From Lachnospiraceae bacterium (GTDB lineage: Bacteria > Bacillota > Clostridia > Lachnospirales > Lachnospiraceae): 54,806 nt of DNA. Positions 43,036 through 54,806 of this stretch are shown in pieces (the first letter of the stretch is position 1; each line of letters starts with the position of its first letter). Location: positions 1-54,806 of the forward strand of contig JAFWWB010000026.1 in the NCBI GenBank assembly GCA_017518185.1, in the 5' to 3' direction. A program made the position numbers and the translations under genes. Below the pieces are notes generated by a model, which saw only the letters and a list, made by a program, of their open reading frames with translations, was not told the DNA's origin and searched no databases.

Positions 43036-43815
43036 TCAGCTGAGTTTTTTATTCAGGAAATCTAGTATGTCCGTCTTGGTGGTAGACTTAAGCAGATATC
43101 CCTCCGGCTTAAGACTCATAACGCGGGAGACCGCCTCCTTCGTGCCTATACCCGTAAGGAAGATCACAGGTATATGCGCCGTGGACTCTTCCTGCTTGAG
43201 CATCTGCAGCACCTGTGGTCCGTCCACCACCGGCATCTCATAATCCAGCAGTATCATATTGACCCTGTCATTCTCAGGAAGCTTCACCAGGAATGTTATG
43301 GCCTTCATACCGTCCGTAACGATATCCACCCGGTACTGGTCCTTGATCCACTCCCGCACCATCTTGGCATACGAAGGGTCATCATCAACGATGAGTATCC
43401 TCTTCTTTTTCATGGCAGTATCCTTCTCGCGGATGCTCTGCTCCACCTCAGCTTCCAGCCTGCCCATATCCACAGGGCGGTCAAGCCAGCTGAAGCTCTG
43501 GAGCAGCGGGTTCTCACTAAGAAGCTCGTCTTTGTAGATAGCCTCGCCCACAAGTATCATCTTCTGGTCCTTATCGGCCACGATCTCACTGAGTTGGTGA
43601 AGCTTGTTCTTCTTCGTGAAATCCTGGTCTATATCTCCGGGGAGATAGAAAAGGAACAGCGCGACCCGTCCCGCCAGACGCTTTATCTCATTATCCAGAT
43701 CCTCCGTCACCGTGGAAACATCATAGCCCATATCCCTGAGCTTCTTCTCGATGCCCTTGACCACCACGCTGAACTTGAACATCAGGATGACAATTTCTTT
43801 TCCCTCTGCCGCCAT
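43036..43815 (-). CDS. Two-receiver signalling protein
   Basis: A 259-residue protein. The C-terminal half (about 138-259) is a normal response-regulator receiver: acidic triad DDD near 144-146, phosphoacceptor Asp about 191 in LLDYEMPVVDG, Thr in FLTGIG, Lys in YLLKST. The N-terminal half (about 8-130) has receiver-like alternation but no clear acidic pocket or acceptor Asp, so it looks like a degenerate receiver. There is no DNA-binding or enzyme output. AGGAGG precedes the ATG by nine bases and it has its own promoter. The likely partners are the hybrid kinases of the operon upstream. Confidence 0.82.
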   Translation of the reverse strand: MAAEGKEIVILMFKFSVVVKGIEKKLRDMGYDVSTVTEDLDNEIKRLAGRVALFLFYLPGDIDQDFTKKNKLHQLSEIVADKDQKMILVGEAIYKDELLSENPLLQSFSWLDRPVDMGRLEAEVEQSIREKDTAMKKKRILIVDDDPSYAKMVREWIKDQYRVDIVTDGMKAITFLVKLPENDRVNMILLDYEMPVVDGPQVLQMLKQEESTAHIPVIFLTGIGTKEAVSRVMSLKPEGYLLKSTTKTDILDFLNKKLS

Positions 43816-43850
43816 GTAAAAAACCTCCTAAAAAATTTCAATACGTATAT

Positions 43851-43879
43851 ATTATACTCAATCCGCGCCCTTTTGAACA
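43851..43879 (-). promoter_or_regulatory. Promoter of the two-receiver protein
   Basis: Minus strand TGTTCA (43874-43879), 17 bases, consensus TATAAT (43851-43856). It overlaps the last codons of the symporter gene. The -35 is poor. Confidence 0.5.
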
Positions 43880-45381
43880 GCCCTGAGAGCATCCTTTTGG
43901 ATATCCGGGTTGTAGGAGAGCATGGGCTCCACGTCCTTTCCCTTTATCCTCCGGTCTATATAGTTCCGGGTTATCTTAACTATAAGTGGAGAGAGCATCA
44001 CCAGTCCTATAAGGTTCGGTATCATCATGAGCCCGTTAAAGGTATCCGCTATATCCATTGTCAGGTCGGATTCCATCACGGCGCCGAAGAGGACCAGTCC
44101 CACAAAGATAAAGCGGTATATCCTGGAGGCCACCACCCCGAAGAGATACTCGGTAACCTTTGCCCCGTAGAAGGACCAGCCCATGACAGTCGTAAAGGAG
44201 AAAAACGTCAGGGCTGCCACCACGAACCATTCCCCAGGCTTTCCGAATATACTGCCGAAGGCCTGCGTCACCAGGGTCGAGTCATTCACGCCCTCAGCCG
44301 CCAGTCCTGTGGAAAGGTCTATAGCCCCGGAGCTCAGTACCACCAGCGCCGTCATGGTGCAGATCACCATGGTATCTATAAAGACCTCGACTATGCCCCA
44401 CATTCCCTGGTGTACCGGCTCTCTGACGCAGCTCACGCTGTGGACCATAACAGAGGATCCGAGCCCGGCTTCATTGGAAAAGACACCACGCTTGCATCCG
44501 TTCTTTATGGTATTCATGGCTGTCTGGACCGCCGTTCCCGCAACGCCGCCTTTGATCGCTGCAGGCCCCAGGGCAAACTTAAAGATCGAAACGAACACAT
44601 CCGGCACTCTCCTGTAGTTCATGAGTACCACCAGGAGGCAGCCCGACACATATACAAAGCACATGACAGGGACCATCTTTTCCGACACCGCCGCCAGCCT
44701 TCTGAAACCTCCGAGTATTATGATGGCTGAAGCCACCATCAGCACTATGCCTATCAGCAGGCTGACCCTTGTTGCATTTACAGCCCCGCTCCCGTCCAAA
44801 GACGTGACAAAAATGGAGCGCACGTTCAGGACTATCTTATTGATCTGACTCATATTGCCTATACCGAAGGAGGCGAATACCGTAAAGATACAGAACAGCA
44901 CGCCCAGGAGTTTTCCTATCCCCTTCATATGCTTTATGGAACCAAGACCGTTCTGGAGATAATACATGGGACCGCCGGACCAGGCGCCTTCGGTATTTCT
45001 CCTCCTGTAGTATATACCCAGAAGACATTCGGAATACTTGACCATCATCCCGAGGAAAGCCGCTACCCACATCCAGAAAACGGCACCTGGACCTCCCACG
45101 CAGATGGCCGTGGCCACCCCCGCGATATTTCCCGTCCCGAGAGTAGCACAGAGGGCTGTACATATTGTCCTTATCTGGGACTGGGCCCCGGCATCATTGA
45201 TGATACGCCCCGATCCCCTGGCTATACCGAATGTATTCTTCCACCAGTGGGGCAGATGGGTAACCTGAAAGAAGCCGGTGATCAGACAGCAGAGCAGACT
45301 GGTGCCCAGCAGCAGGGAAAGCCCGAAAGTTCCCCATACGATGTTGTTGAGCGTGTCGTTAATACGTACAGCCGTATCCAT
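43858..45381 (-). CDS. Alanine/glycine:cation symporter (AgcS family)
   Basis: A 507-residue protein with about eleven membrane helices that should import alanine, glycine or a similar amino acid with Na+ or H+. The family signatures are strong: CTALCATLGTGNIAGVATAI, GGPGAVFWMWVAAFLGMMVKYSE, GAWSGGPMYYLQNGLG and KRGVFSNEAGLGSS. The ATG lies four bases after the stop of the 321-residue gene, so it appears to be the last member of the long signalling operon. Such placement suggests that the transported amino acid and the signalling output are connected; this is inference. Confidence 0.92.
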   Translation of the reverse strand: MDTAVRINDTLNNIVWGTFGLSLLLGTSLLCCLITGFFQVTHLPHWWKNTFGIARGSGRIINDAGAQSQIRTICTALCATLGTGNIAGVATAICVGGPGAVFWMWVAAFLGMMVKYSECLLGIYYRRRNTEGAWSGGPMYYLQNGLGSIKHMKGIGKLLGVLFCIFTVFASFGIGNMSQINKIVLNVRSIFVTSLDGSGAVNATRVSLLIGIVLMVASAIIILGGFRRLAAVSEKMVPVMCFVYVSGCLLVVLMNYRRVPDVFVSIFKFALGPAAIKGGVAGTAVQTAMNTIKNGCKRGVFSNEAGLGSSVMVHSVSCVREPVHQGMWGIVEVFIDTMVICTMTALVVLSSGAIDLSTGLAAEGVNDSTLVTQAFGSIFGKPGEWFVVAALTFFSFTTVMGWSFYGAKVTEYLFGVVASRIYRFIFVGLVLFGAVMESDLTMDIADTFNGLMMIPNLIGLVMLSPLIVKITRNYIDRRIKGKDVEPMLSYNPDIQKDALRAVQKGAD

Positions 45382-45385
45382 ATAC

Positions 45386-46351
45386 TTATCCCATTATCTC
45401 GCAGTAGACCAGCGTCTGGTTCAGCAGCTGGTATGCCACCTCACCAAAGGTAACGGGGCCGGTGTAGGGAGGAGTCGTCTTCCCTTCCAGGTTTCCGTTG
45501 AGATAGTTGAGTATGCAGTTGCAGGAGATCACCGGATTACGTGCTCCCGCGGCATCGATCTTAGCCCTGAACTCTCCCGCGTAATCCTCTACCTTTGTGG
45601 CAAAGCGGTATTCCACGTTTCTGAAAACGGGTGCATAAAATCCCACCGTTCCGTTCTCGATGCCCTTTATAGAGGTATTGATGTAGGATCCGTTATAATC
45701 CGCAACCAGAGGCATTCTTGTATCTATGCCCTTCTTCTCAATATATTCCGCGAAATTCACATCCTGGCCGTTTACGGTACATCTGTCCACAGCCAGTTCA
45801 TTATCATAGAAGCGGATCACAGGATCGGTCTTGTCATCGGTAAAGATATTGATCATGTTGATCATCGCGCTCTTATCCTCGGGAAGCTTTATATACATGA
45901 CCACGGCCTTGTTCGTATAAGCCTCTCCGCTGACTCCGTCAAAGACCTTTGCCTCGCCGCCGACATTCAGATCCATACCCGAGATCCAGCCTACCGTAGG
46001 ATGCATCAGCAGCTCCTCCACATAGGGAGCTTCCTTGGCATACTTTGTGGCCACCTCGGAGCCATAGGGCATGATCACCATGGTAAGACCGTTGTCGTAG
46101 CACTCCTCCACGATCTGGAATACGTTATACTTTCCGTAGGTCGCAATGCGGATCTCCTCGCCGTAATCGATCTCATCCACAAAGAGCCTGTCCTTGGTCA
46201 GCATCCCTCCTTCTTCGCTTATGAAATAGGGAGTGGTGCCTCCGATCCATTTCCCCTTGGGAAGCTTTGAAAGCAGCGACTCATCAGCAGCTATATGAAG
46301 TATCTTCCCTTCATTTATCATTGCACTGGTTTCTTCAAGTGTTTTAAGCAT
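45386..46351 (-). CDS. Protein of unknown function, faintly FIST-like
   Basis: A 321-residue soluble protein. I do not recognise an enzyme. GKWIGGTTPYFISEEGG near the start and ISCNCILNYLNGNLEGK plus GPVTFGEVAYQLLNQT at the end faintly recall FIST sensory proteins, which bind small ligands (possibly amino acids) and partner signalling modules. From memory a DUF6976 family may include it; not verified. AGGGGGG lies seven bases before the ATG. It sits between a small helical protein and the symporter, in the kinase operon. A cytoplasmic ligand sensor is the best guess, with low confidence. Confidence 0.55.
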   Translation of the reverse strand: MLKTLEETSAMINEGKILHIAADESLLSKLPKGKWIGGTTPYFISEEGGMLTKDRLFVDEIDYGEEIRIATYGKYNVFQIVEECYDNGLTMVIMPYGSEVATKYAKEAPYVEELLMHPTVGWISGMDLNVGGEAKVFDGVSGEAYTNKAVVMYIKLPEDKSAMINMINIFTDDKTDPVIRFYDNELAVDRCTVNGQDVNFAEYIEKKGIDTRMPLVADYNGSYINTSIKGIENGTVGFYAPVFRNVEYRFATKVEDYAGEFRAKIDAAGARNPVISCNCILNYLNGNLEGKTTPPYTGPVTFGEVAYQLLNQTLVYCEIMG

Positions 46352-46369
46352 TTTTATACCCCCCTTATT

Positions 46370-46588
46370 TTATAGCGTAGCTATGTTAGCAAGATCGACC
46401 TTGGCAACGATCTTGTATTTACCGAGAAACTCCTCCAGCTCCTTCATGCAGTCATCCATGCTGCCGGGATCGGCCTTCACCTTCTTCTGCAGCTTGGTGA
46501 TGAGCATGTTAAAGGCCAGATTTGCGGAAGTATACTTAAGCTCCCCCCGCAGCACCTTCATGACCTTTTCCTTAACGTTTGCTTCCAT
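46370..46588 (-). CDS. Small helical protein of the signalling operon
   Basis: A 72-residue protein, MEANVKEKVMKVLRGELKYT at the start, predicted as three helices, neutral to basic, no membrane segment. Unknown family. AGGAGG lies seven bases before the ATG at 46588; an ATG one codon earlier is also possible. It lies between the HPt region (39 bases) and the 321-residue gene (18 bases). Confidence 0.6.
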   Translation of the reverse strand: MEANVKEKVMKVLRGELKYTSANLAFNMLITKLQKKVKADPGSMDDCMKELEEFLGKYKIVAKVDLANIATL

Positions 46589-46627
46589 CATTTACCCTCC
46601 TCTCTTTATTTCCTGAAGCCTTTTCCG

Positions 46628-47260
46628 TCATTCCTTATTAAGCTCACTGAGCAGTCCGTCATAATCCAGGGAATCTGCCAATTGGCGTATCCTGCCGAAT
46701 CTTTCGCTTTTCGCCTCCGGTATGGCATACCCGTCGATCTCTTTCATGATCTCCTCCACCATATCGCAGTCCATGGACTCCGCAGCCTCCTTCAGTCCCT
46801 CATAGATGCCTTCCATAAGATACTCGTCCGCCACAGGCTTCTCCGGTTCTTTTGCAGCCTCTTCTTCAAATACGGCGCCTATCTCCTCTCCCAGCCTGAG
46901 GAAATCCTTCATGGCTTTGGCATGATTATCGCGGATATAATCCGTATTGCCTTCCTTCCCGGCGGTCTCAAGCTTCTGTGCCTGTTCACCCAGGTCCATG
47001 GCGCCTATCAGTTTCGCGGAGCTCTTCAGTGCATGTATCTTGATGGTATAGTTCGTCCAGTCTCCCGTAAGATAACTGTTTTCCAGCTCTGCATGCTTAT
47101 CTTCCATGGAATCATAGAAGATCCTGAGCACCGTCTTAAAGGCCTCCTCGGAACCGCTGTTTGTAACAGCCGCCTCCGTATCGATGCACTTAAGCTTCTT
47201 AAGCCAGGACTGTTCGGAAGTATCCTCCTCCTCCGAAGGAGTTTCCCCGGGCTCCGTGAC
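46628..47260 (-). pseudogene. HPt domain separated from its kinase by one TAA codon
   Basis: A 210-codon open stretch in the same frame as the kinase gene ending at 47261, separated from it only by TAA. Its first part (VTEPGETPSEEEDTSEQS) continues the acidic linker of the kinase. The HPt domain follows with the phosphorylatable His (about 76) in KIHALKSSAKLIG, then a helical C-terminal domain. The kinase at the right edge of the window has the same HPt and tail in one chain. The only internal starts are GTG at 47131 and ATG at 47106, both of which cut off helix A of the HPt; GAGGAGG lies 11 bases before the GTG. Either a nonsense mutation, readthrough, or a separately started fragment. Confidence 0.7.
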
Positions 47261-50077
47261 TTACGGAAGCTCCTCAACTTCAGGCTCTTCTATGCCGTAC
47301 TGCTCTCCGGCCAGTATATCTTCAGTATCATCTTCCGACATTTCCTCAGCCTCGGCCCTTATGACATCCTCGATATAGGAGGAGATATTATAGGACTTAT
47401 TTGACTTGAGGAAATACAGTATGCCGAAAGTTCCCGGCCCGCAGTTGGAGGATATGGCCGCTGATGCCTGTCTGAACACCACGTGTTCGAAATAGGCCAC
47501 TCTCCGTATCTCTTCCTCTATGCTCGCAAGGGTATCCTCCGGTATGTCCACGTAGGTTATGAACACCACCTCCGGATCCGGTATGGTATCCGCCGGGATC
47601 GCGCTTTGGATATACTTACGGTAAGCCCTCTTTATGCTTCCCATCCATACGCCGCCTATACCCGCCTTGCCATCCTTTACCTTCAGTGCGGGGTGCAGGT
47701 TCAGGACCTCCGCCACCTTATTGAGCTTTTTGCTGATATAGCCCCTGTCGGCCATGTAACGGGTGGTATTTATGATAAAGCTGCACTTCAGGCGTTTCTT
47801 TACTTCCTCCAGCTCTGAGATGATATCCTTCACCGGAAGCCCCTGCTGCACAAGCTTCTCAGCTATCATCACCAGTATACCCGTTGCGCTTGAAAGCACC
47901 TCCGAATTGATGACCGTCACATTATCGAAGGATCTGGCTGCCTCGCAGGCTATCCCGTATTCCTTACTCATCGCGGTAGTAAGCGAGATATGGATGAGAT
48001 GATGGGCTTTCCTCAGGTTCGTCGCAAAAAACTCAGTGTAAGCCATCTCGTTCTGCGGCTCCGAGACTGCGTCTTTCCCCAGGCTCACATAGGTGATCAG
48101 TTCAGCAGCATCTATGTGTACGCCATCCTTAAAGACACCGTTCTCCGTATGTATGATAAAGGGTATGACGGGAATATGAAGCTTCTTCACCACTGCATCG
48201 GGAAGATCGCACATGCTGGAGGTCGTGATGATCACCGGTACCTTTTCGGTGTACTTGTCGGAGGTATGTATCTCTTCATCATCACCTACCATCATATTCC
48301 TTAAGATGACCTTCTCGGAAGAGATATGCCTGATCAGGGTCTCCTCCATCGCAGCGCCGGTAACGGGCTTCACCAGATAGCCGTCAAAGCCGGCCCTGTT
48401 ATAAAGCTCCCTGTTCTCGCTTCCCGCATTGGCAGTGAGCACTATGACCGGGGTATTCCGGTTCAGGCCGCCCGCCTGGTTTCTTATGGTCTCCAGGCAC
48501 TCTATACCATCCATCTCAGGCATGAGATGGTCCATGAAGATGGCATCATAATGGGTTTCAAGGCACTTATCAAGCGCTGCCTTTCCTCCCAGAGCCACAT
48601 CGATGACCATATCCGTGCCTTCCAGAAGCCTTCTCTCCACCTCCAGGTTCATCTCATTATCGTCCACTATCAGTATCGCCGCCTCGGGAGCCAGGAAACT
48701 GCTCTCATAAGCGCTCCTGCTGCCGGACTGCTGGCTGTGGATATTGAGCTCGCCCACCTTGTTATGATCCGAAACAGTCTGCTTTATGGTGAAGGTAAAG
48801 GTGGATCCTTCGCCGTAAATACTGTTGACGGTAATGGTGCCGCCCATCAGCTCCACCAGCTGCTTGACTATGCTGAGTCCCAGGCCCGTACCTTCTATGT
48901 GCCTGTTCTTTCCCTCGTCCACACGCTTGAAGGCGTCAAAGAGGAAAGGCAGGTCCTCCTTCTTTATGCCCATGCCCGTATCCGAGACCGATATCATCAG
49001 CTCGGCTGTATCAGCGTCGATATCGTCGCTCTCCACCCGCAGCTCTACGCGGCCCTTCTTCGTATACTTTACAGCATTGTTTAAAAGGTTTATGATGATC
49101 TGCTTGATGCGGACCTCATCGCCGTACAGTACGGTGGGAACCTCCGGATCCACGCTCACCTCAAAGCCAAGCCCCTTGTCATGGGCCCTGAGCCACATCA
49201 TATTGACTATCTCCGACAGCATGTCGCCTATGCGGTAATCCACAGGCACTATATCCATGCTGCCTGCCTCCATCTTGGAGAAATCGAGTATATCGTTAAT
49301 AAGGGCCAGCAGCATCTTGCCCGAGCCCTGTATGCCGGAAGCGTCCTTGACTATCTCATCCGTTGCATCCTGGTCCCTGAGTATCAGTTCGTTGAGGCCA
49401 AGGATGGAATTGATGGGCGTACGTATCTCATGACTCATGCTGGAGAAGAAACGGTTCTGTGAACGGGTAAGCTCCTCCGCCCTTTCCGTCTCCTTTTTTG
49501 CACGCTCGTTTTCCTCTGTAAAGAGCAGGCCCTGTGACCAGGTCATGATAAAGCACAGCACACCGACCAGCACCAGCGAAATGAACGAGTCCACATAGTG
49601 CATCTCGGTCGTATGCTCATATACCAGCCCGGGATTTATGTACGCCAGGAAATAACAGCCCAGGGTGAGCAGGGTTATCAGTACGAACATGACGTTGCGC
49701 CAGTTCCCCCTCAGCACCAGGCCCACGTACATAAAGGCGAAGATGATCCAGATGACACCGCCTCCCCGAATACCTCCTCCGAAGAAGAAAAGGGCCGGGA
49801 GTATGACAAAGACCAGTCCCACCACTATCAGCCTGATGGCTACCTTAAGCTTTTCCAGACGCAGGCATACTAAAACGATCATCGGAACCAGAATAAGGGT
49901 CGCAGTCAGCACATATAGCTCATAGGGATTCTCCCCTGTGATGATATCACCGATGAATGCGATGAACACCGTCACTTCAGACATGTAGGTCAGTATAAGG
50001 AATATCCTCTCGGTGAAGTCCCTGTTCGGATCCTTGACCGTGGCAAAGGCGTATTTTATAAATCTTATCAGATTCAT
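47261..50077 (-). CDS. Hybrid histidine kinase - receiver - DegV protein
   Basis: A 938-residue membrane sensor. About six membrane helices (about 28-180) precede HisKA (His about 216 in SMSHEIRTP), HATPase_c (NLLNNAVKY, VSDTGMGI, EGTGLGLSIV) and a receiver (Asp about 516 in FMDHLMPEMDG, Lys about 570). A DegV domain fills about 612-900: SSMCDLPDAVVKKLHIPVIPF, SEPQNEMAYTEFF, ISLTTAMSKEYGIACEAA and VINSEVLSSATG. DegV proteins bind fatty acids, but the usual TSQP and SGTY loops are changed here. The chain stops at TAA just before an in-frame HPt. The ATG overlaps the preceding kinase gene by ATGA, with GGAGGTG upstream. Confidence 0.9.
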   Translation of the reverse strand: MNLIRFIKYAFATVKDPNRDFTERIFLILTYMSEVTVFIAFIGDIITGENPYELYVLTATLILVPMIVLVCLRLEKLKVAIRLIVVGLVFVILPALFFFGGGIRGGGVIWIIFAFMYVGLVLRGNWRNVMFVLITLLTLGCYFLAYINPGLVYEHTTEMHYVDSFISLVLVGVLCFIMTWSQGLLFTEENERAKKETERAEELTRSQNRFFSSMSHEIRTPINSILGLNELILRDQDATDEIVKDASGIQGSGKMLLALINDILDFSKMEAGSMDIVPVDYRIGDMLSEIVNMMWLRAHDKGLGFEVSVDPEVPTVLYGDEVRIKQIIINLLNNAVKYTKKGRVELRVESDDIDADTAELMISVSDTGMGIKKEDLPFLFDAFKRVDEGKNRHIEGTGLGLSIVKQLVELMGGTITVNSIYGEGSTFTFTIKQTVSDHNKVGELNIHSQQSGSRSAYESSFLAPEAAILIVDDNEMNLEVERRLLEGTDMVIDVALGGKAALDKCLETHYDAIFMDHLMPEMDGIECLETIRNQAGGLNRNTPVIVLTANAGSENRELYNRAGFDGYLVKPVTGAAMEETLIRHISSEKVILRNMMVGDDEEIHTSDKYTEKVPVIITTSSMCDLPDAVVKKLHIPVIPFIIHTENGVFKDGVHIDAAELITYVSLGKDAVSEPQNEMAYTEFFATNLRKAHHLIHISLTTAMSKEYGIACEAARSFDNVTVINSEVLSSATGILVMIAEKLVQQGLPVKDIISELEEVKKRLKCSFIINTTRYMADRGYISKKLNKVAEVLNLHPALKVKDGKAGIGGVWMGSIKRAYRKYIQSAIPADTIPDPEVVFITYVDIPEDTLASIEEEIRRVAYFEHVVFRQASAAISSNCGPGTFGILYFLKSNKSYNISSYIEDVIRAEAEEMSEDDTEDILAGEQYGIEEPEVEELP

Positions 50078-52125
50078 CTCTTATCACCTCCTTTGCCAAC
50101 GGAGTGCCCTTCGAGTACCCTGGACACCACTCTCTCAAAGTCAGCAATATTTATAGGCTTGGCGATAAAGCCGTCGAAGCCCTCTCTTATGAACATCTCC
50201 CTGGCGCCGGATACGGCATTGGCCGTAAGGGCGATGACGGATATCTTCCTTCCGTTTTCCGAGGCATCAGCCTTTATAAGCTTCATGGCCTCCACGCCGT
50301 CCATCTCCGGCATCATATGGTCCATGAAAATAAGGTCATAGTCTTTTTCGCGGAACTTCCTGATCGCCTCCCTGCCGCTTCCCGCGGTCTCGATCACCAT
50401 CTCGTAGTCCCTGAATAGCGAGGTGGCCACCACCAGGTTCATGGGCTCATCGTCCACTATGAGCGCCTTTACGCCCCTGAATACCGGTTTCTCCGTATGC
50501 ACGTTTCCGTCCACATCCCTGGCGTCCCTGCCCTCGTTGATTATCTTTATAACAGGGTATGCATAAAGAGGCTTGGGCATCAGCACCACCTTGCTGTTCT
50601 CGGGCAGCCTGAAGTCCTGTGCAGCGGATACCACGAGCACTATATCCTCCTTGGCCAGCTCCTCAAAGTACCCCCTGTTCTCCTCGTATTCCTCCTGTCC
50701 CATGAACACATGGGTCACGTTGAGCTTCTCCCTGAGCCGTTCCACCTCATAGACTGTCTCAGCCGGATAAAGGGGCACATGTACTCCCATGGCAAGGTTC
50801 GCCGCCATGCTACGGTAGAAATCCCTGAGCCTTGGCACCTTGTACTTATCAGGCTTCACATGGAAGAGCACCGTGGAATCGAAACTGCCGTCCAGAGCCA
50901 GACAGGGGAAAGGATCCACCACCTTCTGGGGAATGGTGACGCGCACCGTGGTCCCCACCTTCTTTTCGCTCTCTATCTTTACAAAGCCTCCCATCCTGTG
51001 GGCAAAGCCGTAGACGATGAAAAGTCCCAGACCTATGCCGCCTGAGCTCCTGTTCCTCTTCTTGTTCTCCTGATACATACCCTCTGTCACCGAGCGTATG
51101 GCGTTTCTGTCCATGCCTATACCGGTATCCGTCATCTCTATACAGAGGTTCACGCCATAGTCAGTCTTTTCGGCAAACATCTTAACGTGAATGCCGCCGA
51201 CCCTTGTAAACTTCACTGCATTTTCCAGAAGGTGCCTGAAGATCTTGTGAAGCTTCTTTATATCCCCCTTCATCATGGCCGGTGTCCTGGGATTCAGGTC
51301 CACCACCAGCTCCAGCTCTCCGGCCTTGTCGCTCATGCGGAAGCTGGTGACCACATCGTTGATCAGGGAGATGCTCATATAATTGTCTTCCTCAAGAAAG
51401 ACCTTCTGCCTCTTGCACTCGGTGTAATCCTGGATATCTTCTATCTGATATGCCAGTCTGACTCCCGCCTGTCTGATGGCGTCGGCCTCTTTCCCCACGC
51501 CTCTCTTTATGAGAAGATCCGACATGCCGTTGACTACGTTTACCGGAGTCCTGAGCTCATGTGAGATATTCGAGAGGAAGTCCTCCATGCTGTTGTCATT
51601 AGCCGCGATCCTGCCGGCGTTGATACGCGCCTCTTCTTCGCTCTCAAGCCTGTTCTGTATGAACCTCACCGTTATGAGATATACCAGTACCACGATCGCT
51701 GCATGAAGCAGTATCCTGTAAACCGTCAGCCTGTCATAGACCAGAGGCTCCCCCCCTGCCAGTCCCACGAACTGTATCATCCATACAGCGAAGAACTCCA
51801 GGAGCAGCGCATTCATCATGTATATCTTATTAAGTCCGGAATAAGTCACCATGACCAGCACCGTTGCCAGAGCCGCATCAAAGAAGCTCGTGCTGTGTAT
51901 GCCGTGATAGAAGAGAAGGAGCAGCGCCATCGCAAAATAGAAGAGCTTCCTTACATCATCGTCTACCTTCTCCGAAAGATTGACAGCCCAAATTGCCACC
52001 AGAGCAGCAAAGATCACAAAGGGCACCCAGAATTCCCAGCCCAGCTGTATATTCTCAACGATCAGGCCCACCGATCCAAGGGATACCACCATCACAATGA
52101 GTTTTTCATTATTTTTCTGGTTCAT
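50074..52125 (-). CDS. Hybrid histidine kinase with C-terminal receiver
   Basis: A 683-residue membrane kinase. About five to six membrane helices (to about 158), HisKA with His about 189 (NISHELRTPVNVV), HATPase_c (LLENAVKFT, MTDTGIGMD, GGIGLGLFIVYG), then a region of about 100 residues that looks like a degenerate receiver (VTHVFMGQEEYEENRGYF). A full C-terminal receiver ends it (KALIVDDEPMN, FMDHMMPEMDG, GFIAKPI). No HPt is present, so phosphate must move to an HPt supplied by another protein, perhaps the neighbouring fragment. It starts two bases after the receiver-GGDEF gene stop. Confidence 0.9.
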   Translation of the reverse strand: MNQKNNEKLIVMVVSLGSVGLIVENIQLGWEFWVPFVIFAALVAIWAVNLSEKVDDDVRKLFYFAMALLLLFYHGIHSTSFFDAALATVLVMVTYSGLNKIYMMNALLLEFFAVWMIQFVGLAGGEPLVYDRLTVYRILLHAAIVVLVYLITVRFIQNRLESEEEARINAGRIAANDNSMEDFLSNISHELRTPVNVVNGMSDLLIKRGVGKEADAIRQAGVRLAYQIEDIQDYTECKRQKVFLEEDNYMSISLINDVVTSFRMSDKAGELELVVDLNPRTPAMMKGDIKKLHKIFRHLLENAVKFTRVGGIHVKMFAEKTDYGVNLCIEMTDTGIGMDRNAIRSVTEGMYQENKKRNRSSGGIGLGLFIVYGFAHRMGGFVKIESEKKVGTTVRVTIPQKVVDPFPCLALDGSFDSTVLFHVKPDKYKVPRLRDFYRSMAANLAMGVHVPLYPAETVYEVERLREKLNVTHVFMGQEEYEENRGYFEELAKEDIVLVVSAAQDFRLPENSKVVLMPKPLYAYPVIKIINEGRDARDVDGNVHTEKPVFRGVKALIVDDEPMNLVVATSLFRDYEMVIETAGSGREAIRKFREKDYDLIFMDHMMPEMDGVEAMKLIKADASENGRKISVIALTANAVSGAREMFIREGFDGFIAKPINIADFERVVSRVLEGHSVGKGGDKR

Positions 52126-52127
52126 GT

Positions 52128-53459
52128 TTATCCTTTCTTAAGCATGGACGCCGCATACTTTATCTCCAGCCTGTCATGATAGCCTGTTTTGTCCCAGGCC
52201 TCCGTGATACGTTCCATGACCCTGGGGATATCCCGCTCCGGCATCATTGGAAGCACCACAAAATACTTTTTCTGCTGCCATTGCAGTACTATATCCGTCT
52301 TTCTCAGTGTCTGCCTGAGTACATTGCCGAATTCCGAGACCATCTCGGTAAATATGACGCCTTTCTCATCAGAATCGAGGGAGAAGAGCATCCTGGTCAC
52401 ATCACCGCCGTATCTTGAAGCGTACCTTACGATAAAGCGGTAATTCCAGGCAAAGGCATCCTGCCCCATGAGCAGGGCTCCCCTTCCTTCGCCTCTCTCG
52501 GATACTATCTGCACCACATCCTCAAGGCCTCTCTCCAGATCCTCTCCGCTTTCCTCCTTTGCCTTGAGGGGATCATAGATCTCGAAGCCGTGCTTGCCAT
52601 TCCTTTTCACCTCATAGAGGGCGCTGTCGGCGTACTGGAAAAGTATCTGATAATCATTATGCTCTTCCGAAGCAAAAGAGACTCCTATGGACACCCCCAG
52701 GGGTATTCCGTGATCGGCCCCCATGAGCCGCTCCGCCTCCGCCTGAAACTGAAGCTTGAGCCTGCCCTCAAATGAAGCCACCTCTGCCGCTCCTGTAAGG
52801 CCGGCAAAAAAGCCCATGAACTCGTCGCCGCCTATCCTGCAGATCAGATCCTCCGAACGTATGTTATTCCGCAGTACATCCGCAAAGGCCACCAGTACCC
52901 GGTCTCCCATATCATGGCCGTATATATCGTTCACCAGCTTGAAGCTGTCCAGATCCAGTATCATCAGGGCGCCTTCCGTATCCCTGCATAGCCCGCTGAC
53001 TCTCTCCGTTCCCGCGGCCTTATTCAGGCAGCCCGTCAGCCTGTCGGTAGTGGCCTCCTCCGTAAGGCTCTCGATAGTCTTGCTGTTTATTATCGTGTTG
53101 TTGATCCTCTTGATAAGGATATCCTCATCAAAGGGCTTGTGTATGAAATCCGAGGCCCCCGCCCGCAGTCCCCTGCGTTCGGTCTCGTTATTATCTTCTC
53201 CCGTAAGGAAGATCACCGGGACCCTTGGCCTGCCGGCCTTATCCTCAAACTGCCTTAAGGCCCTGTAGGTCTCGAAGCCGTCCATCCCGGGCATGAGTAT
53301 ATCCAGCAGGACCAGATCTGCCGTATGCTTCTCCACATAGTTCAGCAGATCCGCCCCGGAACGCAGACAGCCCACGTGCATACCGTTTGCGCGCAGGATG
53401 TTCTTTGCATTTGTAAGGCTCAGCGGTTCGTCATCAACCACCACTATGTTATAGGCCAT
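52128..53459 (-). CDS. Receiver-GGDEF protein with a second degenerate GGDEF-like domain
   Basis: A 443-residue response regulator. The receiver (about 3-120) has DDE near 9-11, acceptor Asp 53 and Lys 108. The GGDEF domain (about 135-300) keeps ATTDRLTGCLNK, DLDSFKLVNDIYGH, the active site GGDEF at 210-214 and an inhibitory RSED site at 201-204, so it should make cyclic di-GMP with feedback control. The last about 120 residues repeat the fold: LRKTDIVLQWQQKKYFVVLP stands where sDvicRiGGDEFlvllp would be, with no active-site residues. Twelve bases after the upstream kinase and two before the next. Confidence 0.9.
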   Translation of the reverse strand: MAYNIVVVDDEPLSLTNAKNILRANGMHVGCLRSGADLLNYVEKHTADLVLLDILMPGMDGFETYRALRQFEDKAGRPRVPVIFLTGEDNNETERRGLRAGASDFIHKPFDEDILIKRINNTIINSKTIESLTEEATTDRLTGCLNKAAGTERVSGLCRDTEGALMILDLDSFKLVNDIYGHDMGDRVLVAFADVLRNNIRSEDLICRIGGDEFMGFFAGLTGAAEVASFEGRLKLQFQAEAERLMGADHGIPLGVSIGVSFASEEHNDYQILFQYADSALYEVKRNGKHGFEIYDPLKAKEESGEDLERGLEDVVQIVSERGEGRGALLMGQDAFAWNYRFIVRYASRYGGDVTRMLFSLDSDEKGVIFTEMVSEFGNVLRQTLRKTDIVLQWQQKKYFVVLPMMPERDIPRVMERITEAWDKTGYHDRLEIKYAASMLKKG

Positions 53460-53471
53460 AGCTTTTCCTTC

Positions 53472-54806
53472 TCAGATCCCTTCCTCATCAAGCAGAGCGA
53501 TTATGGTCCCGTATTCATACCTTTCCGCCGCAGCTACGATCTTTTCATATACGTCCTTGCGTTCGGATGTTATCCTGTATTCTCTCATCTCCTCAAATAT
53601 CCCGTCAAGCATCTCGCAGTCCATCTCCTCTGCCGCGGATCTGATCTCTTCAAACACCGCCTCCATGAAATCCGGATCTGCCTCCGGACGGCCTGCATCC
53701 GAGGCATAGCGCGATAGCACAGCCGATACCGGCTCCTCCATCCTGCCGTATACTTCCATAAAGCCCATATGATGGCTTCCTATATAATCCTTATCTCCGG
53801 CTTTTCCGGCATTCTCAAGCTTCTGTGCCTCCTCGCCGGCTGCCGCAGCGCCTATTATCCTCAGTGAGCTCTTAAGTGCATGTATCCTGATGGTATAGTT
53901 CCCGAGATCCCCTTCCCCGTAAAATCGGTTGAGCTCTTCCTTTTTATCTGCCATGGATTCGCGGAAGATCTTGAGCAGTGAAATATAGGAATCCAGGGAG
54001 CCGCTGTTCCTGATCCCTGTCTCCGTATCGATACCGCAGTCCCCAAGGCCTTCCAGCAGACCCGCTGTCTCCGGATCCTCAACCGCAGTCTCCTCAGCCT
54101 TATTCTCCGCAGCCTCCCTGATCCTTACCTTATCCTTCGGAAGGTAATCCAGCATCATGACTTCCAGTACATCCGGATCGATGGGCTTGGTAAGATAGTC
54201 GTCAAAGCCTGCCTCTATATACTTCTCCCTGGCACCCGAGATGGCATTTGCCGTAAGGCATATGGTCGGAGTTGCGGCATTTGGATTCTCCCCGCTGCTC
54301 CTTATCTCGTGGAGAGTCTCGATACCGTCCTTTTCCGGCATCATGTGATCCAGGAAGATCATATCGTATTTGGTTTTTTTCGAAAGCTCTATTCCCTCGT
54401 CACCGGATCCGCCGGTATCCGTCTGCACTCCGGTCTGCTTCACCAGGCTCTTGAAAACCATAAGGTTCATGGGATTGTCATCCACCACCAGTATCCTTGC
54501 AGCCGATGCCGTAAAGCTTTCCCTGTATCTGCCCTTTGCTTCTATATGATCCCTGTAGGATGCACCGTAATCCCCTATTGGATCCCAGTCAACAACCTTC
54601 TGCTTTACCCCAAAACTGAAGCTTGAACCTACTCCGTATGAGCTCTCTACCTTAAGCTCCGAGCCCATCAGTGCCAGAAGGCTCCTGGTAATGCTCATGC
54701 CAAGGCCCGTGCCCTCGATATTGCGGTTGCGTTCCTCATCTATCCTTGTAAATGCCGAGAAGAGATTCTTTTGGTCCTCCTCCTTCATACCGATGCCTGT
54801 ATCTGA
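53472..54806 (-). CDS. Hybrid kinase - receiver - HPt, 5' part outside window
   Basis: The visible 444 residues begin inside HATPase_c at SDTGIGM (G1 box) and IEGTGLGMSIT, then a receiver (ILVVDDNPMN, FLDHMMPEKDG, DDYLTKPI), then an HPt domain (His in RIHALKSSLRIIG) and a helical C-terminal region (MEAVFEEIRSAAEEMDCEML). The HPt and tail are close relatives of the HPt stretch at 46628-47260, showing the intact arrangement of that pair. No DegV domain is present here. The transmembrane or sensory part lies beyond the right edge. First gene visible of the signalling operon. Confidence 0.9.
   Translation of the reverse strand, partial: SDTGIGMKEEDQKNLFSAFTRIDEERNRNIEGTGLGMSITRSLLALMGSELKVESSYGVGSSFSFGVKQKVVDWDPIGDYGASYRDHIEAKGRYRESFTASAARILVVDDNPMNLMVFKSLVKQTGVQTDTGGSGDEGIELSKKTKYDMIFLDHMMPEKDGIETLHEIRSSGENPNAATPTICLTANAISGAREKYIEAGFDDYLTKPIDPDVLEVMMLDYLPKDKVRIREAAENKAEETAVEDPETAGLLEGLGDCGIDTETGIRNSGSLDSYISLLKIFRESMADKKEELNRFYGEGDLGNYTIRIHALKSSLRIIGAAAAGEEAQKLENAGKAGDKDYIGSHHMGFMEVYGRMEEPVSAVLSRYASDAGRPEADPDFMEAVFEEIRSAAEEMDCEMLDGIFEEMREYRITSERKDVYEKIVAAAERYEYGTIIALLDEEGI

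Follow-up and report, generated by a model that had tools for sequence, protein, structure and literature searches.

A DegV-bearing hybrid kinase of a Lachnospiraceae bacterium, and the private stop codon that appears to part it from its HPt domain

When a single in-frame stop codon stands between a hybrid kinase and an HPt phosphotransfer domain, is one gene broken, do two genes lie side by side, or is the stop read through to give two proteins? The question is raised by contig JAFWWB010000026.1 of a Lachnospiraceae bacterium (assembly GCA_017518185.1), the whole 54,806 nucleotides of which were analysed and are here called the window. On its minus strand a reading frame opens with ATG at 50077 and runs for 938 codons to GAG GAG CTT CCG TAA, beyond which the identical frame stays open for another 210 codons before closing at a TGA (46628-46630). 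A first-pass annotation of the letters alone had described this arrangement, and direct reading of the sequence bears it out. It is very probable that the locus encodes a membrane-anchored hybrid kinase of the order HisKA-HATPase-receiver (REC)-DegV-linker-HPt, normally a single polypeptide of ~1150 amino acids (aa), from which the HPt is here parted by a private stop in the linker, whether a very recent nonsense mutation or an error of sequence or assembly.

Pfam recognises HisKA, HATPase_c, Response_reg and DegV (PF02645, residues 616-889, 1.3e-34) in the upstream frame, and in the downstream frame the predicted HPt (PF01627, 2e-8), whose key histidine is invariant (Table 1). All the hallmarks of an HPt-type hybrid kinase (HisKA His, HATPase, receiver Asp and HPt His) are thus present across both halves, but not in one polypeptide in this genome, as the TAA breaks the frame. 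The HPt and the helical tail behind it recur in one piece in the kinase at 53472-54806 with 41% identity, in keeping with what was noticed on first reading, and the linker is alike on either side of the TAA, also as then described, because the counts of acidic residues made by eye are similar (16/37 before, 7/18 after). The DegV domain inside the kinase, which ends ~50 residues before the TAA, was absent from that account and is the unusual feature of the locus.

A run of 210 open codons has a chance of ~8.5e-5 at the base composition of the window (52% GC), but this figure overstates the case for one gene because the minus strand holds three more sites at which same-frame segments of at least 130 codons are parted by a single stop, one of which (53472) separates two different genes by domain content. 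On the comparisons made here it is homology, and not the length of the open run, that appears to decide that kinase and HPt are one gene. Eighty related loci were kept from 232 relatives found in a scan of genome contigs, from which records near the window's own genome were possibly omitted, and in 79 of the 80 DegV and HPt lie in a single unbroken frame (several cut at the 5' end by their contig), upholding the earlier proposal of a single gene. Their record titles name Lachnospiraceae, Butyrivibrio or Eubacterium, with one uncultured bacterium; a good many were assembled from rumen metagenomes, and the isolates include Butyrivibrio sp. MC2021, XPD2002, VCD2006 and NC2007. In the sole exception, L096, the linker is frameshifted and the contig stops inside the HPt, and L098, to which it is 97.8% identical in nucleotides, is intact. 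Within the genus a match at E <= 1e-100 was found in 14 of 35 genomes, some records of which appear to be shared with the 80 loci, and an internal stop only in the window's genome; among the 14, the kinase of G006 lacks an HPt, and the contig of G001 cuts its frame short. Alignment of the orthologues at the codon in question found such a stop in none of the 79 intact loci, nor in the frames of the 13 other matching genus genomes, so that among those examined the stop is private to the window's genome.

Could the HPt piece be a gene in its own right, the arrangement that the first-pass annotation named as one that would refute its reading? The first in-frame starts past the TAA are a GTG at codon 44 (47131) and an ATG at codon 52 (47107). 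In the structure model both fall within the long HPt helix 377-404, and because they lie past the first short helices, the remark that a fragment begun there would lose HPt helix A agrees with the model. An AGGAGG stands 11 nucleotides (nt) 5' of the GTG, within Glu-Glu-Ala codons; as it is part of these codons, and as only 9 of 65 fused relatives have the motif, there too within coding sequence, it does not appear to be a conserved start signal. Ten other start codons of the window were also checked, and AGGAGG precedes four of them by 4 to 9 nt. A conserved, dedicated start with a ribosome site for the HPt piece was not found in the window or the 65 fused relatives, and an ordinary two-gene layout with a free HPt gene, for which this GTG would be the sole early start, is rejected for lack of a conserved start after the TAA.

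Nor does the HPt appear to be decaying relative to the DegV part. In trees of 75 of the 81 sequences (L096, L157 and four frames of at most 1000 aa were dropped) the window's terminal branch, ranked from short to long, comes 58th of 75 for the HPt and 62nd for DegV, both among the longer ones, 38th for the receiver and 44th for the tail, both mid-range, and 25th, a short branch, for the kinase core; its HPt/DegV branch ratio ranks 41st and its median HPt identity 39th of 75. This pattern is compatible with an error and with a very recent change, between which the test has no power to separate, and also with a part that is still made. The stop would thus seem to be a recent nonsense change or a sequence error, rather than a conserved readthrough site or an ordinary pair of genes, because it is private, lies in a disordered and hypervariable linker, is followed by no conserved start and precedes an HPt that is not decaying relative to DegV. 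Of the alternatives first proposed, a recent nonsense mutation or sequencing error is therefore the best fit, and the earlier view that the break is recent or tolerated survives on the intact relatives and the unaccelerated HPt, if not on the length of the open frame from which it was argued.

What, then, is a DegV domain doing between a receiver and an HPt? In FakB1 of Staphylococcus aureus the fatty-acid carboxylate is reported to be held by a network of Thr62, Ser95, Ser171 and His270, with Arg173 as a latch, and the R173A variant to be catalytically inactive (PMC8892158). The kinase DegV domain shares the common fold of DegV/FakB proteins and scores above the Pfam and NCBIfam cut-offs (PF02645, TIGR00762), and its putative equivalents of the FakB1 residues were placed from motifs and aligned sequences, not by superposition. 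In an HPt-class alignment of 73 sequences (the window and 72 of the 80 loci, leaving out L096, L157 and six others) Ser stands at the Ser95 position throughout and at the Thr62 position in 72, whereas the His270 equivalent is Asn in all 73 and the Arg173 equivalent is Arg in one, being mostly hydrophobic. Stand-alone DegV proteins, which are not fused to a kinase, differ in both respects, keeping the His in 32 of 33 and the Arg in 32 of 33, these being the best scorers against the kinase-DegV profile or query and not a random draw (34 were taken, and L175, a kinase, was set aside). In the 16 aligned kinases that lack an HPt (G006 and 15 short forms) the Arg position holds Arg in nine and Lys in three, and the His position Asn in 14. 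The full FakB1 carboxylate network with its latch is thus lacking from HPt-class DegV, and FakA is encoded elsewhere in the window's genome. We infer a lipid-binding fold that retains hydroxyls for ligand contact and that, in the HPt class, would stand outside the FakA pathway.

Kinases of this kind are not confined to the window. A DegV match at E <= 1e-60 within a frame of at least 700 aa was found in 46 of 299 genomes of the family Lachnospiraceae, the window's own among the 46 (298 genera; kinase domains were checked in few of the frames), and in this sample a long form of 1115-1182 aa can be told from a short form, mostly 865-997 aa, that ends at or soon after DegV, most short forms running no more than a few residues past it. 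The window's genome has three DegV-bearing kinases, the split one and two on contig C70, and in a phylum sample of 398 genomes DegV frames of at least 700 aa occur only in the window's own family among the matches listed. In a tree of 71 DegV domains, rooted at the midpoint and with long branches of unsure placement, the 37 kinase-fused domains fall in one group (100/100), together with stand-alone L035 and the further kinase L175, and within the tree the HPt-bearing kinases cluster as 22 members (100/99), the HPt-less G006 among them; this grouping suggests one fusion event and one gain of the HPt form. An HPt-bearing gene adjoins nine of the 15 short-form genes (E <= 1e-10), some being weak by Pfam, such as that of L073 (21.8 bits, the cut-off being 24.6). 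Stops inside the match in many short-form paralogues (e.g. G055:C115, G001:C21 and G026:C22) were considered as further split HPts and rejected, the match merely overrunning the paralogue's own end just after DegV. A second apparent in-frame TAA split, in G036:C13, was likewise set aside: its HPt piece (L079, 7567-8556, minus strand), directly after a short DegV kinase and in the same frame, is read by eye as a separate gene because a plausible TTG start preceded by GGAG is present and the piece carries additional sequence at its N-terminus, which looks receiver-like by eye. G036:C30 ends after its own HPt, and an unrelated-looking frame follows. The DegV kinase of G014 (L067, 480-3791, minus strand) has a frameshift in its C-terminal tail, and in that of G006 (L071, 6452-9775) a region resembling a degenerate receiver by eye, with no Pfam match, stands in place of the HPt. 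A 580-aa DegV protein from another family (L194, 1501-3240, minus strand) carries a 300-aa N-terminus with no Pfam match. The kinase family is widespread and no description of it was found: a fusion of DegV and kinase is not described in the titles and abstract openings found among open-licence PMC papers, and a term search of the main text of one two-component survey (PMC4558063) did not return 'DegV'.

How should the stop itself be explained? That it is an error of sequencing or assembly, and the gene an ordinary, intact fused one, is possible though short of probable: the genome is a draft in 92 contigs, the relatives are intact with an HPt not accelerated against DegV, and the near-identical L096 and L098 differ by a frameshift in the linker, whereas the site has no homopolymer (by eye) and the assembly holds no second version of the region, the next match being 67% identical. 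It is rather unlikely that the stop is real, fixed in the lineage and tolerated or even adaptive, the 938-aa HK-REC-DegV protein (HK, histidine kinase) working without its own HPt, which would be supplied in trans or initiated separately. Natural short HK-REC-DegV kinases do exist, G036:C13 offers the short kinase and an HPt protein as two same-frame genes, and the neighbouring kinase bears an HPt; a precedent is reported in Yersinia pestis, where a break in the phosphorelay gene rcsD likewise parts an HPt that is still made, as a small RcsD-Hpt beside full-length RcsD (PMC10191623). In Yersinia, however, the break is a frameshift and both forms are reported as demonstrated, while here it is a stop known from sequence alone; it falls far further beyond DegV than the end of most short forms, the HPt piece has no conserved start or ribosome site, and no other genome examined shares it. 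Regulated readthrough to a short and a long kinase, which the first-pass annotation had also entertained, is highly improbable: the open frame beyond the stop is indeed not accelerated against DegV, but the stop occurs in no other orthologue examined, for which reason conserved readthrough is rejected, and because the linker is hypervariable no conserved recoding signal would be expected there.

Several points weigh against the main reading, a private break or error in a kinase that relatives keep intact and whose DegV domain would be a sensor. The window's HPt terminal branch is 0.47 against a mean of 0.32, though its DegV branch is likewise long. C-terminal breaks recur, in the linker of L096 and the tail of L067 (both frameshifts judged by eye from translations) and in G006 with its other end and no HPt, and could mean either that loss of the HPt arm is possible or that this region is prone to errors in draft assemblies. 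Moreover, the network His and latch Arg of FakB appear changed in a DegV domain whose ligand binding is itself a prediction. The domain might instead be an output, phosphorylation of the receiver controlling the binding or release of lipid by DegV; we hold this to be unlikely. In the short class DegV lies C-terminal to the receiver, the effector position of response regulators, and FakA is present in the genome. Hand-over to FakA would nonetheless be unlikely in the HPt class because the Arg, needed in FakB1 as reported (PMC8892158), is replaced in 72 of 73 and the His in every one, an argument that is weaker for the short class, as Arg or Lys still stands in 12 of the 16 rows without HPt. We infer instead a ligand-sensing DegV module in a phosphorelay, in which phosphate would pass from His216 through Asp516 to His1015 and thence to a response regulator. 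DegV, binding a hydrophobic or fatty-acid-like ligand, would tune the relay rather than feed fatty acid to FakA. Were the stop real, the product would be an HK-REC-DegV kinase like the natural short class, and its phosphate would need a different HPt as its way out, such as the one in the neighbouring kinase at 53472-54806.

Table 1. Features of the split kinase and its neighbours in the window (residue numbers beyond the stop follow the read-through frame)
Feature	Positions	Strand	Basis
First open frame, 938 aa: hydrophobic N-terminus (by eye), HisKA, HATPase_c, receiver, DegV, acidic linker, TAA end	47261..50077	-	
In-frame TAA, absent from other orthologues examined	47261..47263	-	
210 further open codons: linker remainder, HPt, helical tail, TGA end	46628..47260	-	
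Kinase phospho-acceptor His216; His in 75/75 aligned sequences	49430..49432	-	
Receiver phospho-acceptor Asp516; Asp in 75/75	48530..48532	-	
DegV (FakB-type fatty-acid-binding fold) domain, residues 616-889	47411..48232	-	Pfam, fold
Disordered acidic DegV-HPt linker, predicted local distance difference test (pLDDT) mostly <50; hypervariable among relatives	47213..47332	-	
HPt phospho-acceptor His1015; His in 73/73	47033..47035	-	
C-terminal helical tail, common to kinase 53472-54806	46637..46828	-	
Partner hybrid kinase HK-REC, no Pfam Hpt match, overlaps DegV-kinase start; adjacent in 72/72 loci with enough sequence	50074..52125	-	
HK-REC-HPt kinase, cut by window end; possible in-trans HPt donor	53472..54806	-	
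REC-GGDEF (diguanylate cyclase) gene	52128..53459	-	
AGCS sodium:alanine symporter, downstream in 68/75 loci	43858..45381	-	

The neighbours of the DegV kinase form a conserved cassette that spans 43036-52125 of the window. Besides the symporter, the downstream genes include one for DUF6976 (39/75 loci), a 73-aa open reading frame (40/75) and a receiver protein at 43036-43815 (47/64), which joins a C-terminal receiver domain to a 139-aa N-terminus with no Pfam match and is a possible phosphate acceptor of the relay. Upstream, where the loci offer little sequence and the counts are lower bounds, the REC-GGDEF gene is present in at least 21 of 69 and the HK-REC-HPt gene in at least 17 of 69. As the HK-REC partner has no Pfam Hpt match of its own, the HPt of the DegV kinase may serve it as well.

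Set beside known systems, the DegV kinase resembles hybrid kinases with a C-terminal HPt such as BarA and TorS in its HisKA-HATPase-REC...HPt order and its retained phospho-acceptors; among NCBIfam models these two score highest on the 938-aa frame, though they fall far short of their cut-offs (321.6 of 890 and 315.9 of 676.5 bits), and unlike them it places a whole DegV domain and an acidic linker between receiver and HPt. In S. aureus, fatty acid kinase is reported to affect SaeRS signalling (PMC5539427), so that there too a sensor kinase system is influenced by fatty acid metabolism; the Fak proteins of that report are separate, whereas the kinase here has a FakB-like domain within its own chain. 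One speculative history, which we put forward as doubtful, is that a FakB-type domain was captured once by Lachnospiraceae hybrid kinases, had its site His and latch Arg replaced so that it ceased to serve FakA in the HPt class, and became an internal sensor between receiver and HPt at which a lipid or hydrophobic signal gates the last phosphotransfer, relatives switching between one-piece and in-trans HPt and the stop marking one such change still under way.

As for the stop, it is probably either an error or a break private to this genome. What it draws attention to is a lipid-carrier fold inside a phosphorelay protein, found in many Lachnospiraceae genomes from rumen samples and in named Butyrivibrio isolates, within a strongly conserved neighbourhood of partner kinase and alanine symporter. 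If DegV does sense fatty acids, the kinase would give these bacteria a direct molecular route for reading lipid supply or the state of the membrane.
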